64,000 bases of DNA. It comes from Monodelphis domestica. Lineage: Eukaryota; Chordata; Mammalia; Didelphimorphia; Didelphidae. Below the pieces are notes generated by a model that saw only the letters and a list, made by a program, of their open reading frames with translations, was not told the DNA's origin and made no database searches. The position numbers and the translations under genes are program-made. The stretch lies in NCBI RefSeq assembly GCF_027887165.1, contig NC_077235.1, positions 13,661,033 to 13,725,032 of the forward strand. Direction: 5' to 3'. Every line of letters begins with the position of its first letter. The first letter of the stretch is position 1. Below, one piece after another: positions 52,200 through 56,350 of the stretch.

Positions 52200-53300
52200 C
52201 TAAGCAAGTTTAATAATGATGTTGAATATTTCACTTATGGTAAATTATTAAAAAGCAGCCAATCTTTGAAGTTACTGAAATACATGTTAAAATGATGCAT
52301 ATCTTGAGTTAAACATTTTTTTTAGTTAAGAAAACATTTAATGCTGGCAAAATAATGTGAATAGTTACTAAATGCTTTAAACAGTTAAATAATTAAGTAT
52401 TTTCCCAGTAATGTAACAGATACTAAACAAGTTACTTATTTGTATTGCTAGTAAATACTGTTTACTATAAAATCAGTCCATCTTTGAAGATACTAAAATG
52501 CATGTTAAAATAATACATCTTAGTTGAAACTTTTTTTAGTTAAGAAAACATTTAATGCTAGTAAAATAAAGTAAATACTAAGTACTTTAAATAGTTAAAC
52601 CATTAAGTATATTTTCAGTAATGTAAACATGTACTAAACAAGTCACTTATTTGTAATGCTAGTAAATGCTGTTTACTATAAAATATATAAAATCAGTCCA
52701 TTTTTGAAGATACTAAAATGCATGTTAAAATAATACATCTTAGTTAAAACTTTTTTTAGTTAAGAAAACATTTAATGCTAGTAAAATAATGTAAATACTA
52801 AGTACTTTAAATAGTTAAACCATTAGGTATTTTTTCAGTAACATAAACAGATATTAAACAAGTCACTTATTTATATTGCTATTTAATATTAGGTTTACTA
52901 TAAATTTTTTTAAATCAGTCAATCTCTGAAGTTACTAAAATGCTTGTCAAAGATAAATATTATTTAAAGCTTTAATATTTTTTCCACCAAGAAAACATTT
53001 AATGTTGGCAAAGTAATGTAGTTATTTAGTAATTTAAGTAGTTAAGTGAATAAATATTTTCCAGTAATTAAACTGATATTAAGTTATTTACTTCTATTGC
53101 TACTCAATATATACTTAAATTTTTCAAAAGTCAAGGTGGAGGTCTTTGAGGAACTAATATACACTTTAAAATGATAAACATCTTAATATTTTTTAGTGTA
53201 AAGAACTTAATGCTGCCCAAAACATAAAATACTGAAATAATAATAGTATATAGTGTTTTCATCCATTTTGTTTTTCTACAATTCTTATAAACATTTAAAA
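52200..53300. repeat. Five-copy AT-rich tandem repeat, period about 220 bp
   Basis: The landmark tctttgaagatactaaaatg and its variants recurs at 52263, 52481, 52701, 52923 and 53143 (steps 218, 220, 222, 220). A second landmark, taagaaaacatttaatgct and variants, recurs in each unit. Copies 2 and 3 are nearly identical while the outer ones are worn, as expected if the centre was duplicated last. It lies in the likely 3' UTR of the phosphatase retrogene. I recognise no known repeat family in the unit. Confidence 0.9.
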
Positions 53301-53528: not shown

Positions 53529-53714
53529 TTACAGATTCAGTCTTTTTCTTTTAAATCTGGTCTTATTTGACCCCTCCACCTTTGGATTCTCATCACGACT
53601 GGTACCAGGTTTACATTCATCTAGACCTCGTTTACGGGTGCCACCTTCAGAGCTCTCTTCCCCAGAATCTGGCATTCTAGTGGCTAGATCTGAAAAATCT
53701 GACTCATCACCTAT

Positions 53715-53754
<40 letters not shown>

Positions 53755-55085
53755 AGGTTTAAAACCAGCCTGAACGCTTTGTGCTTTTTAGATATTATTC
53801 CACTTGGAGGTGGAGAACTATCAAAGCTGTAGCTACGAGCATGGTCCTCAGTGGTAAGTTGTTTCCACTTTTTCCTGACATTTTCATCTCCCATGAGGAA
53901 TTTTGCCCCTTCAATGACTGCCACGTATGAGAATCTTAGCTGTTCTGGGGTCTGAATAAGTCCCATCCGGTACTTTCTCAGGCTCACCAGTACTTTTCTG
54001 ATATTCAGGGAAAAGGGATGTTCTTTCTTCTCCATCAGGACCAAACAGGTATCAATCAGAGCAAAGGTGCCAGAACGCCCAATGCCAGCACTGCAATGAA
54101 CAACCGCAGGCCCCCGCTCATAGCTGAGGCAGCCAGACTCCCGCACCATGAAAAGGAAAGAGAGGAAAGAGGCTGGGGATTCAGGTACCCCAAAATCAGG
54201 CCAGTTGTTGTAGTGGAAGTGGGAGATGGCCCGGGCCTCTCCGGTCATTGTGTTCTGCAGACTCAAGTAACGGACTGTGTGGTAGGGCCCCACATCCTCC
54301 CCCATCATGTGGACGCTGATGCCCATCTCCTCAAAGAGGAGACTCTCACCTTGGCTGGATGGCCAGTACTGGGAGCACTTGATAGAATCCTTCTCCACCA
54401 ACCGGTTAAGCATTATCACGGCCTTGCTATCCTGCTGCCACACCATAAGCCAGAAGTGGCTACACGTATTGGGCAGGGGACCCTGGGTTAGAATATAGCT
54501 CCTCTGGGCTTCTTCTACCATGACGAAGTTGGCGTTGATGTAGTCGTTCTGCATGTCTCCGCTCCCGCCTTTGTCGCCGCTGGTTCCGCTCAAGGATCCG
54601 CATGACAAACCGGAATCCCCGGCCACGGCCAAGGCCAAGCCCAGCCCCGGGTGGAAGCCCCCCCCAGGGGCTCGGGTCGCTGCCCTCAGGCGAACCCTGC
54701 TGTGGTCGTAGGGGCTCACGTCTCGGTAGCGGTTGCGGGGCCTGTTCTCTGGTGCTCGAGCTACTCGGTATGGGTAGTCGTGACACTGGTTCCCCACCTC
54801 CAGGTAGGCCTGTGGCCACCCGTTGCTCCTGTCCAGCGCCTCCAGCTCTCGCTCCACGTGCATTGCGGTGCCCAAAACGGCGGCTCCGTACCCTGATACC
54901 AACATAGCCTCTTCCTCTTCTTCTACCAGGTCCTCGTCTGTGCCAACGGATGCCATGGAGACTAGGGACGTTGGCGTTGCCACCACCGAGGACGAGGAGG
55001 TTTTGGTGATGTTCGGCGTAGCGCTGCATGAGGTCATCTCGCATTCGCTGATCTCCATGTCTTTGGGGGACTCGGGGGTTGACAT
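53529..55085 (-). CDS. PTPN2-like protein tyrosine phosphatase, intronless retrogene
   Basis: Predicted to dephosphorylate phosphotyrosine, likely in the nucleus. Start chosen at ATG 55085-55083 (518 residues, G at -3); the frame is open 5' of it to a stop near 55409 but holds no other ATG. Residues 75-150 match the PTPN2 N-terminus: the pTyr loop [14 protein letters not shown] is at 117-130. Then come NDYINANF at 180-187, [10 protein letters not shown] at 199-208, FWLMVWQQ at 211-218, the WPD loop (W295, D297), the P-loop [10 protein letters not shown] with Cys331 and Arg337, and Q378/Q382 of the Q loop. All catalytic residues are present. Novelties are a 74-residue acidic, Ser/Thr-rich extension before the ancestral Met; about 42 extra Gly-rich residues at 137-179; Gly98 where PTP1B has Arg24 of the second pTyr pocket; 12 Asp at 445-456; and a basic tail (RKR at 484-486, FKRKR at 511-515) like nuclear TC45. 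No membrane tail. PTPN2 rather than PTPN1 from SPYDHSRV and LMVWQQ. Expression is unproven. Confidence 0.9.
53718..53753 (-). repeat. Coding (GAT)12 run, poly-Asp
   Basis: Twelve pure GAT codons give 12 Asp, followed by Glu, just after the catalytic domain. Purity makes length polymorphism likely. Confidence 0.97.
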
Positions 55086-55282
55086 CTCTGCGGGTCTGGT
55101 GACGGTGGCCCAGGATAGGGGAAGGCCTGCGGACTCGGCGGAGGCGGGGGATGATGCCAGGAGACGGTGGCCCCGATTTAGGCCGGGACCCAAAAGAGAC
55201 AACTGAGGCTCGGCCCCTGGCCTCGACTGTGGCACGGGAGGGTGGGGATGGGACGTGAGAGCAGCTGGAAGTAAATGGCCGC

Positions 55283-55390
55283 TGCTCAGGAGGAGGAGGT
55301 TTGGGCTATGGTGGCGGCGGAGGCAACGGAGGCAGTGGAAGCGGAGGAGGAGGAAGGAGGAGGAGAAGGAGAAGGAGGAGGCGGCGGAGG
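55283..55390. repeat. GGA/GGC-rich leader repeat
   Basis: Plus strand is ggaggaggaggt ... ggcggcggaggc ... gaggaggaggaagg; the gene strand is CCT/GCC-rich. The plus strand has several G-runs that could fold as G-quadruplexes. It lies in the ATG-free leader. Confidence 0.85.
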
Positions 55391-55602
55391 TGGAGGTTGA
55401 GGCAGTCTACAAGTGCAGGTGATGATAGAGGAGGCCTCGAGGGCAGTCGCCCAAGGCGGGGACCCCACTAGACCTGGCTAACCCCAGGGGAGAGGTCAGG
55501 GAGGGACACTCACTCAGTCTCTGTTACTGCGCACCTGACCGAAGACGACCAACTGAACTAACAAACCAAGGACCGAGAGGCCTTAGCAACAGTACCTGGA
55601 AA

Positions 55603-55610
55603 TGACGTCA
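55603..55610. promoter_or_regulatory. Perfect cAMP-response element
   Basis: The palindrome TGACGTCA lies about 520 bp 5' of the ATG, within the CpG island. CREB and the testis factor CREM bind this site; binding here is inferred. Confidence 0.6.
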
Positions 55611-55709
55611 CCAAGGGGAGATACCAACGAAGCGGCGGGGACGTTCGATGAAAGATGGTACTGTCCAGTCAGCGCAGGCCGCAGGTGGGGGAGGGGCGGG
55701 CGAAAGTTC

Positions 55710-56250
55710 TGAGGTGGAGAAAAGTCAATGGGGAAGAGAAAAGTCTCTGAGGCCGGAAAAGTCTCTTGAGGAGAAAGTTTTTGAGTAGAGGAAAAGTCCC
55801 GAGAGCTGATGGAAAATCAGCTGTGGAGAAGGTGAGGTGAAAAGTCTTTGAGGAGGCGAGGTGGAGAGGCAGAAAGTCTCCGGAAGAGCTGAAGGAAAAT
55901 CAGCTCCGGAGAAGGCGAAAAGTCTCTAGGGTGGCAAAACTGAAAAAAATCAAGGTGGGGAAAAGTCGCTGAGAACAAAAAAAATCTCTGAGGAGAAAAA
56001 GTCTTCTGGGAGATCAAAAAATCTCCGAGATCAGTCTCTGAAAAGGCCAACGGTCTCTGAGGAGAAAGTCTCCCAGGAGAATGGTCTCCTGGGAGACTTT
56101 CAAAAAGAACAAAAAAAGCCTTCGAAGATAACGGTCTCTGAGAACAAAAAACCTCCAAGGAGAACAAAAAGGTCCAAAAGGACAAAAAATTATTGAGGAA
56201 CAGAAAATCTCTGGGTAAGAGAGTCTCTGAGGAGGAAAGCGGTCCCTGAG
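55710..56250 (-). repeat. Degenerate array of splice-acceptor-like modules
   Basis: The plus strand repeats gtctctgaggagaaa and variants at about 55744, 55762, 55844, 55876, 55922, 55985, 56034, 56053, 56068, 56084, 56134, 56208 and 56223. On the gene strand the module reads TTTTCTCCTCAGAGAC: a pyrimidine tract followed by CAG, the form of a 3' splice site. Spacing is irregular. The unit is not one I recognise. A 146-codon frame without ATG spans 55817-56257 on the minus strand and is probably a by-product. Confidence 0.8.
56065..56100. repeat. Perfect inverted repeat, 16-bp arms
   Basis: aaagtctcccaggaga (56065-56080), a 4-bp spacer atgg, and tctcctgggagacttt (56085-56100) form a perfect hairpin or cruciform inside the array. 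A second, bulged hairpin lies at 55878-55912 (ctccgg/ccggag and agctga/tcagct). Confidence 0.95.
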
Positions 56251-56269: not shown

Positions 56270-56350
56270 AGGACAGCGGTAAAGGGACCTGGGCAGCAAG
56301 ATGGCTACTCAGTTTACCGCCTGGTCACGTTCCTGAGCATGCGCAATGCC
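56270..56350. promoter_or_regulatory. Promoter-like block (YY1-, NRF1-like)
   Basis: caagatggct (56297-56306) is a YY1-type core, and gagcatgcgca (56335-56345) differs from the NRF1 site GCGCATGCGCA at one base. A perfect 8-bp inverted pair, gcggtaaa / tttaccgc, lies at 56276-56283 and 56313-56320. On the gene strand GGCG|GTAAAC near 56315 could act as a splice donor. Such blocks are common at CpG promoters; the start site is inferred. Confidence 0.4.

Follow-up and report, generated by a model that had tools for sequence, protein, structure and literature searches.

The phosphatase frame and its surroundings

The window that we analysed, 64,000 nucleotides of the opossum genome (C9:13661033–13725032), carries on its reverse strand a frame, here called A, that runs from ATG to stop without any internal stop (Table 1). 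It stays open further upstream, to 55406; the start at 55085 is supported by comparison with a second frame, B, because gap phase and identity both shift at this ATG. A first-pass annotation of this DNA had claimed an uninterrupted frame with a whole class I phosphatase domain, and this is borne out: the 518 codons cover 234 of 234 profile positions of Pfam Y_phosphatase (PF00102; E 6.5e-74), a complete class I Cys-based PTP domain in which the HC(X)5R P-loop (Cys331, Arg337), the WPD acid (Asp297), the Q-loop Gln (Gln378, in QTPEQ) and the pTyr-loop Tyr (Tyr120) are all present. Homology to PTPN2 begins only at about residue 76, the residues before it forming an N-terminal extension; between the pTyr loop and the NDYINA strand lies an insert of some 43 residues. 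The Asp run in the tail is encoded by a (TCA)13 tandem repeat, and the basic end RFKRKRLNL is presumably a nuclear signal of the TC45 type. We also observed a step in GC3 within the frame (53532–55085), from 0.65–0.80 in the domain parts to 0.26 in the tail. The closest solved structures are human PTPN2 (451 bits) and then PTPN1 (426 bits), searches of viral and bacterial collections for relatives gave zero confirmed candidates, and tRNA and Rfam scans had no matches.

Table 1 Features at the locus of A, in window coordinates
Feature	Position	Strand	Remarks
AT-rich tandem repeat	52241..52956		220-bp unit, 3.2 copies; just 3' of the A stop
Coding frame of retrogene A	53529..55085	-	518 aa; stop codon 53529–53531
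C-terminal tail, residues 421–518	53532..53825	-	12-Asp run and basic end RFKRKRLNL; aligns with opossum PTPN2 tail
Remaining catalytic domain	53856..54554	-	E/K loop, WPD loop (Asp297), P-loop (Cys331, Arg337), Q loop (Gln378); Pfam, AF2, Foldseek
CpG island, candidate promoter	54251..56250		spans 5' half of A and upstream flank
Gly-rich insert, residues 135–177	54555..54683	-	common to A and B; falls within parental exon 3; model pLDDT about 25–30
Phosphatase domain start and pTyr loop NRYRDVSPY, residues 76–134	54684..54860	-	Pfam, structure matches
N-terminal extension, residues 1–75	54861..55085	-	common to A and B; without counterpart in human PTPN2; unmatched in retrocopy L007
Palindromic CRE-like TGACGTCA	55603..55610		in A island

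The assembly searched is the window's own genome (3.586 Gb, 13 contigs), in which contig C9 measures 89.4 Mb. HPRT1 is X-linked in therians, and C9 carries a multi-exon HPRT1 as five separate matches on one strand at 48.893–48.908 Mb, with up to 95% identity to the human protein; C9 is therefore very probably the X chromosome. A second multi-piece HPRT1 set of lower identity to human (58–85%) lies on C5. On C4 (350409672–350908468) we observed six intronless HPRT1-like open frames within 0.5 Mb, together with partial copies; these frames have 228 codons, match residues 1–216 at 71–73% identity to human HPRT1, and look like an expanded retrogene cluster.

Inside the island at A, the observed/expected CpG ratio is 0.51–0.76 in seven 500-bp windows, versus 0.14 for the whole window. 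The B locus has its own island (0.51–0.85 over C9:17040001–17042000, versus 0.29 over a 19.8-kb stretch that includes the island and one other high window). Both would be candidate promoters, unmethylated in the germline. The palindrome TGACGTCA, which we take to be a CRE-like element, has one match versus 0.06 expected and occurs at least once in 5 of 100 shuffles, having been noticed before testing; at the matching place in B it is absent. We also observed a repeated GAGACTTTT, three copies upstream of A (55739–55926) and three upstream of B (L009, 8324–8388): the whole window holds four versus 1.4 expected, a count reached in 7 of 100 shuffles, and the whole of L009 holds five versus 0.2 expected (0 of 200 shuffles). 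A further motif, TGCGCATGC, assumed here to be NRF1-like, lies at 56337–56345 (one match versus 0.02 expected; 2 of 100 shuffles).

Descent from PTPN2 and the second frame

Opossum PTPN2 is represented on C3 (255277882–255352068) by eight coding exons beyond exon 1, which cover human residues 24–381. AG precedes all eight, and GT or GC follows all but the last. The seven introns between these exons are missing from A, which is an intronless copy of a multi-exon parent. The first-pass annotation had read the single exon against a many-intron parent as the sign of a retrocopy, a reading confirmed by the eight exons on C3; its own caveat, that PTPN2 might itself be intronless in this species, was examined and does not apply. 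Retention of an intron was considered as the source of the Gly-rich insert and rejected, because the insert falls inside parental exon 3. Inspection of the sequence by eye recognised neither a poly(A) tail nor a target-site duplication at A.

Within the group, A lies nearer to PTPN2 than to PTPN1, in bits as given above and in residues. It is identical to human PTPN2 in 199 of 295 domain columns and to human PTPN1 in 178 of 295; at the 89 sites where the two human proteins differ, A has the PTPN2-type residue at 34, the PTPN1-type at 13 and neither at 42. On these counts, together with the tree comparison, we reject PTPN1 as the parent. A is altered at 41 of the 206 sites at which PTPN1 and PTPN2 agree and at 55 of the 89 at which they differ, and 41 changes are unique to A, whereas human PTPN2 has 13 of its own. 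Opposite a gap in the human PTPN2 sequence, opossum PTPN2 reads DPFS and both A and B read HPFS. The best of three protein trees places A and B with opossum PTPN2 (RELL 0.805), and all three trees stand unrejected; since the two alternatives have AU values of 0.18 and 0.11, for which the program warned of few replicates, the copying of PTPN2 may predate the marsupial–eutherian split (the alternative with AU 0.18).

The genome was searched with a phosphatase family query, which gave 217 candidates (150 of them scored), and with the window protein, which gave 124 (83 of them scored). Among the scored candidates, B (C9:17039385–17040629, 3.3 Mb from A) is the one other long open relative with the remodelling of A. 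Like A it has the N-terminal extension, the loop insert, a CpG island, an open frame and similar upstream sequence. Since extension and insert are common to both, we conclude from the sequences that one retrocopy was remodelled first and duplicated second, and the description of A as a remodelled PTPN2 copy is strengthened by a second frame that bears the same two changes. B differs from A in Tyr46His, Asp48Tyr, Phe182Leu, Ser216Thr, Ala217Ser and Lys116Arg (PTP1B numbering for residues of this kind, here and below), and it stops early, without the C-terminal tail. The window-protein search counts two stops in B because the match extends beyond B's own stop codon; past that stop lies a weak KRKRLN-coding match (E 1.1 as protein, 0.007 as DNA), which could be either a vestige of the tail or a chance match.

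Other PTP-like frames were observed in the same genome. A 649-codon single open frame whose first listed start is GTG (L001, 1471–3420; C9:66798401–66802135) comprises a linker and a catalytic domain whose closest human counterpart is PTPN21 (648 bits); it is apparently another PTP retrocopy on C9. On C3, a single open PTP-like frame of 248 codons (L003, 1492–2238; C3:245343364–245347059) has an altered P-loop, YCSARVGQTG.

Selection on the two frames

Compared directly, A and B have an NG86 omega of 0.33 over 400 codons (bootstrap 0.25–0.42), with 0.30 in the domain (0.21–0.42), 0.30 in the N-terminal extension (0.13–0.52; 71 codons) and 0.54 in the Gly-rich insert (0.24–1.03). With an A–B omega below 0.5, neither copy can have been neutral throughout if the two are equally old. 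Relative to the parent, synonymous change has reached saturation (ps 0.88 and 0.94), because GC3 values lie far apart (0.26 in the parent, 0.67 in A and 0.76 in B). A clock codon model in which each sequence had its own composition and branch times were equal, applied to 258 shared codons, put omega at 0.143 in A and 0.307 in B; both are below 1 (p 1e-16 and 6e-9) and they differ from each other (p 0.0036), with the clock itself unrejected (p 0.42); its stem estimates sit at saturation and carry no meaning. In 100 bootstraps, A ranged over 0.078–0.213 and B over 0.209–0.440, A being the lower every time. The same composition-aware model with free times gave 0.25 for A and 0.22 for B, so that the tighter constraint on A depends on the clock, as does any branch value for A alone. 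When times were free and the model stationary, an omega of 1 was unrejected for A (2dlnL 0.01) and weakly rejected for B (4.25), because saturation of synonymous sites between the copies and the parent leaves the root free to slide; with a star-tree stationary codon model the A–B root could not be placed.

Unguided DNA alignments of A and B give a second line of evidence. Within the coding sequence 4 of 4 internal gaps are multiples of three, compared with 1 of 3 in roughly 300 nt of 5' flank; past the ATG the identity is 0.743, and in that flank 0.593. These values bear on the reading that the CpG island is what is conserved, as promoter of another or an antisense transcript, with the frame as its passenger. 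The islands at both loci and the similarity that extends upstream of the ATG would fit it, but both identity and gap phase shift right at the ATG and amino-acid conservation continues 3' of the island as far as the Q loop, and we regard a passenger frame as very unlikely.

What an unconstrained PTPN2 copy looks like can be seen in two retro-pseudogenes of the same genome, which like A are intronless and of the same parent and, unlike A, are young and broken: L007 on C1 differs from the parent at 43 of 1021 aligned bases (4.2%) and has five frame-shifting gaps and one stop, and L032 on C4 differs at 71 of 814 (8.7%) and has three frame-shifting gaps and five stops. That other PTPN2 retrocopies have decayed could be taken to favour the view that A is an old retropseudogene and its open frame a matter of chance. 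Yet when a frame of A's length was evolved neutrally in simulation, with indels uncounted, 3 of 400 replicates lacked stops at 0.10 substitutions per site and 0 of 400 at 0.12, and on this result, together with the broken state of such young copies, we reject a chance open frame; with the A–B dN/dS of 0.33, the in-frame gaps and the second open frame added, we consider that reading exceedingly improbable. The earlier claim of selection and not decay has held up on the same evidence, and we conclude that frame A has been kept by selection, the sequences indicating purifying selection between A and B, and on each branch if the two are of the same age.

Active site, proposed function and comparison with PTPN2 and PTPN1

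At 39 selected active-site positions, compared with human PTP1B, the residue is kept at 38 in the parent PTPN2, at 35 in A and at 30 in B. Both copies lack Arg24 of the second pTyr pocket (Gly in A, Ala in B) and keep Arg254, so that A lacks the Arg24–Arg254 pair for two-site pTyr recognition, which is a working mode of PTP1B and no mark of lineage. In PTP1B, Arg24 with Arg254 holds the second phosphate, and the PTPN2 counterpart of Arg254 is given as Tyr252 (PMC9266911), where our alignment has Arg instead. An AF2 model of the A domain, built on a 16-row alignment from the opossum genome in which some of the rows for short exons are wrongly placed near the insert, has a mean pLDDT of 68.5 and a pTM of 0.72; it is mostly confident from the NDYINA strand to the end and of low confidence in the insert and the preceding pTyr loop. 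Foldseek matches this model best to PTP1B and PTPN2. The full-length single-sequence model (pLDDT 33) is unusable.

From these residues we infer that A is an active tyrosine phosphatase. A rival reading holds that A is kept for its protein as a binder or scaffold and not as an enzyme, its catalytic residues being inherited and yet to be lost; the change of the WPD hinge from TT to NN, Arg24 to Gly, Tyr153 to His and the large insert beside the pTyr loop would suit such a role, as would B, which lacks Tyr46 and Asp48 and is still constrained in the clock model. We judge it unlikely, given that the equivalents of Cys215, Arg221, Asp181, Gln262, Tyr46, Lys120 and Glu115 are kept and that these catalytic residues have stayed while 41 of 206 otherwise conserved sites were altered. 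For A as an enzyme, the loss of Arg24 suggests that tandem-pTyr targets, for instance kinase activation loops, would be less strongly preferred; this would disfavour a simple JAK/STAT-dampening copy and make JAK/STAT dampening by A less likely. In B, pTyr-loop Tyr46 is replaced by His and Asp48 by Tyr; these losses and that of the tail suggest that B is probably a weak or non-catalytic binder.

Taken together, the data are best explained by a scenario in which reverse transcription of a spliced PTPN2 mRNA placed a copy on a chromosome that is very probably the X; this most likely happened in the marsupial lineage. The retrocopy, which sits in a CpG island, would then have acquired the N-terminal extension and the Gly-rich loop beside the pTyr loop, and its remodelled form would have been duplicated within the same chromosome into A and B. 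We are confident that A is an intact, remodelled, duplicated and selection-kept PTPN2 retrogene, whose product would be an active tyrosine phosphatase with standard Cys331/Arg337/Asp297/Gln378 chemistry, probably nuclear by virtue of its basic tail, and acting on substrates unlike those of PTPN2, owing to the loss of Arg24 from the second pocket and the added mobile loop, with B as its weak or non-catalytic relative. The opossum would then probably make extra, altered versions of PTPN2. It is tempting to go further and speculate that the marsupial X holds third and fourth members of the PTPN1/PTPN2 group, an active nuclear enzyme A retuned from tandem-pTyr substrates and a partner B, impaired in pTyr recognition, that shields or traps substrates, as a matched enzyme–decoy pair older than living marsupials, a proposal that we ourselves hold to be doubtful.

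PTPN1 and PTPN2 together hold insulin, JAK/STAT and growth-factor signalling in check and serve as a drug target; to our knowledge, mammals are usually described with just these two in the group. A lineage that keeps two rebuilt extra copies would be a natural experiment on which parts of a PTP domain tolerate change, the second pTyr pocket and the pTyr loop foremost, and the A/B pair offers a test case for retrogene insertion into the marsupial X. Among the literature titles and abstract openings listed, none dealt with a marsupial PTPN2 retrogene. A functional retrogene is a known kind of gene; what is new, as far as the literature found goes, is a PTPN2 pair that has been remodelled, duplicated and kept by selection, lies on the probable marsupial X and has diverging active sites. 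A predicted-gene annotation of A may already exist, and A may be among the 232 opossum retrogene candidates, of which 93–162 are estimated to be real, that are counted in PMC2657826.

Finally, we note how A compares with its two relatives. With PTPN2 it shares the whole class I domain, at 71.9% identity to the opossum and 68.5% to the human protein, and an alignable tail; it differs in its single exon, its probable location on the X, the N-terminal extension, the loop insert, the lost Arg24, the Asp run in the tail and a GC3 of 0.67 versus 0.26 over 258 shared codons. PTPN1 (PTP1B) has the same fold and is the top Foldseek match to the model of A, whereas its identity to A is 61.4%.
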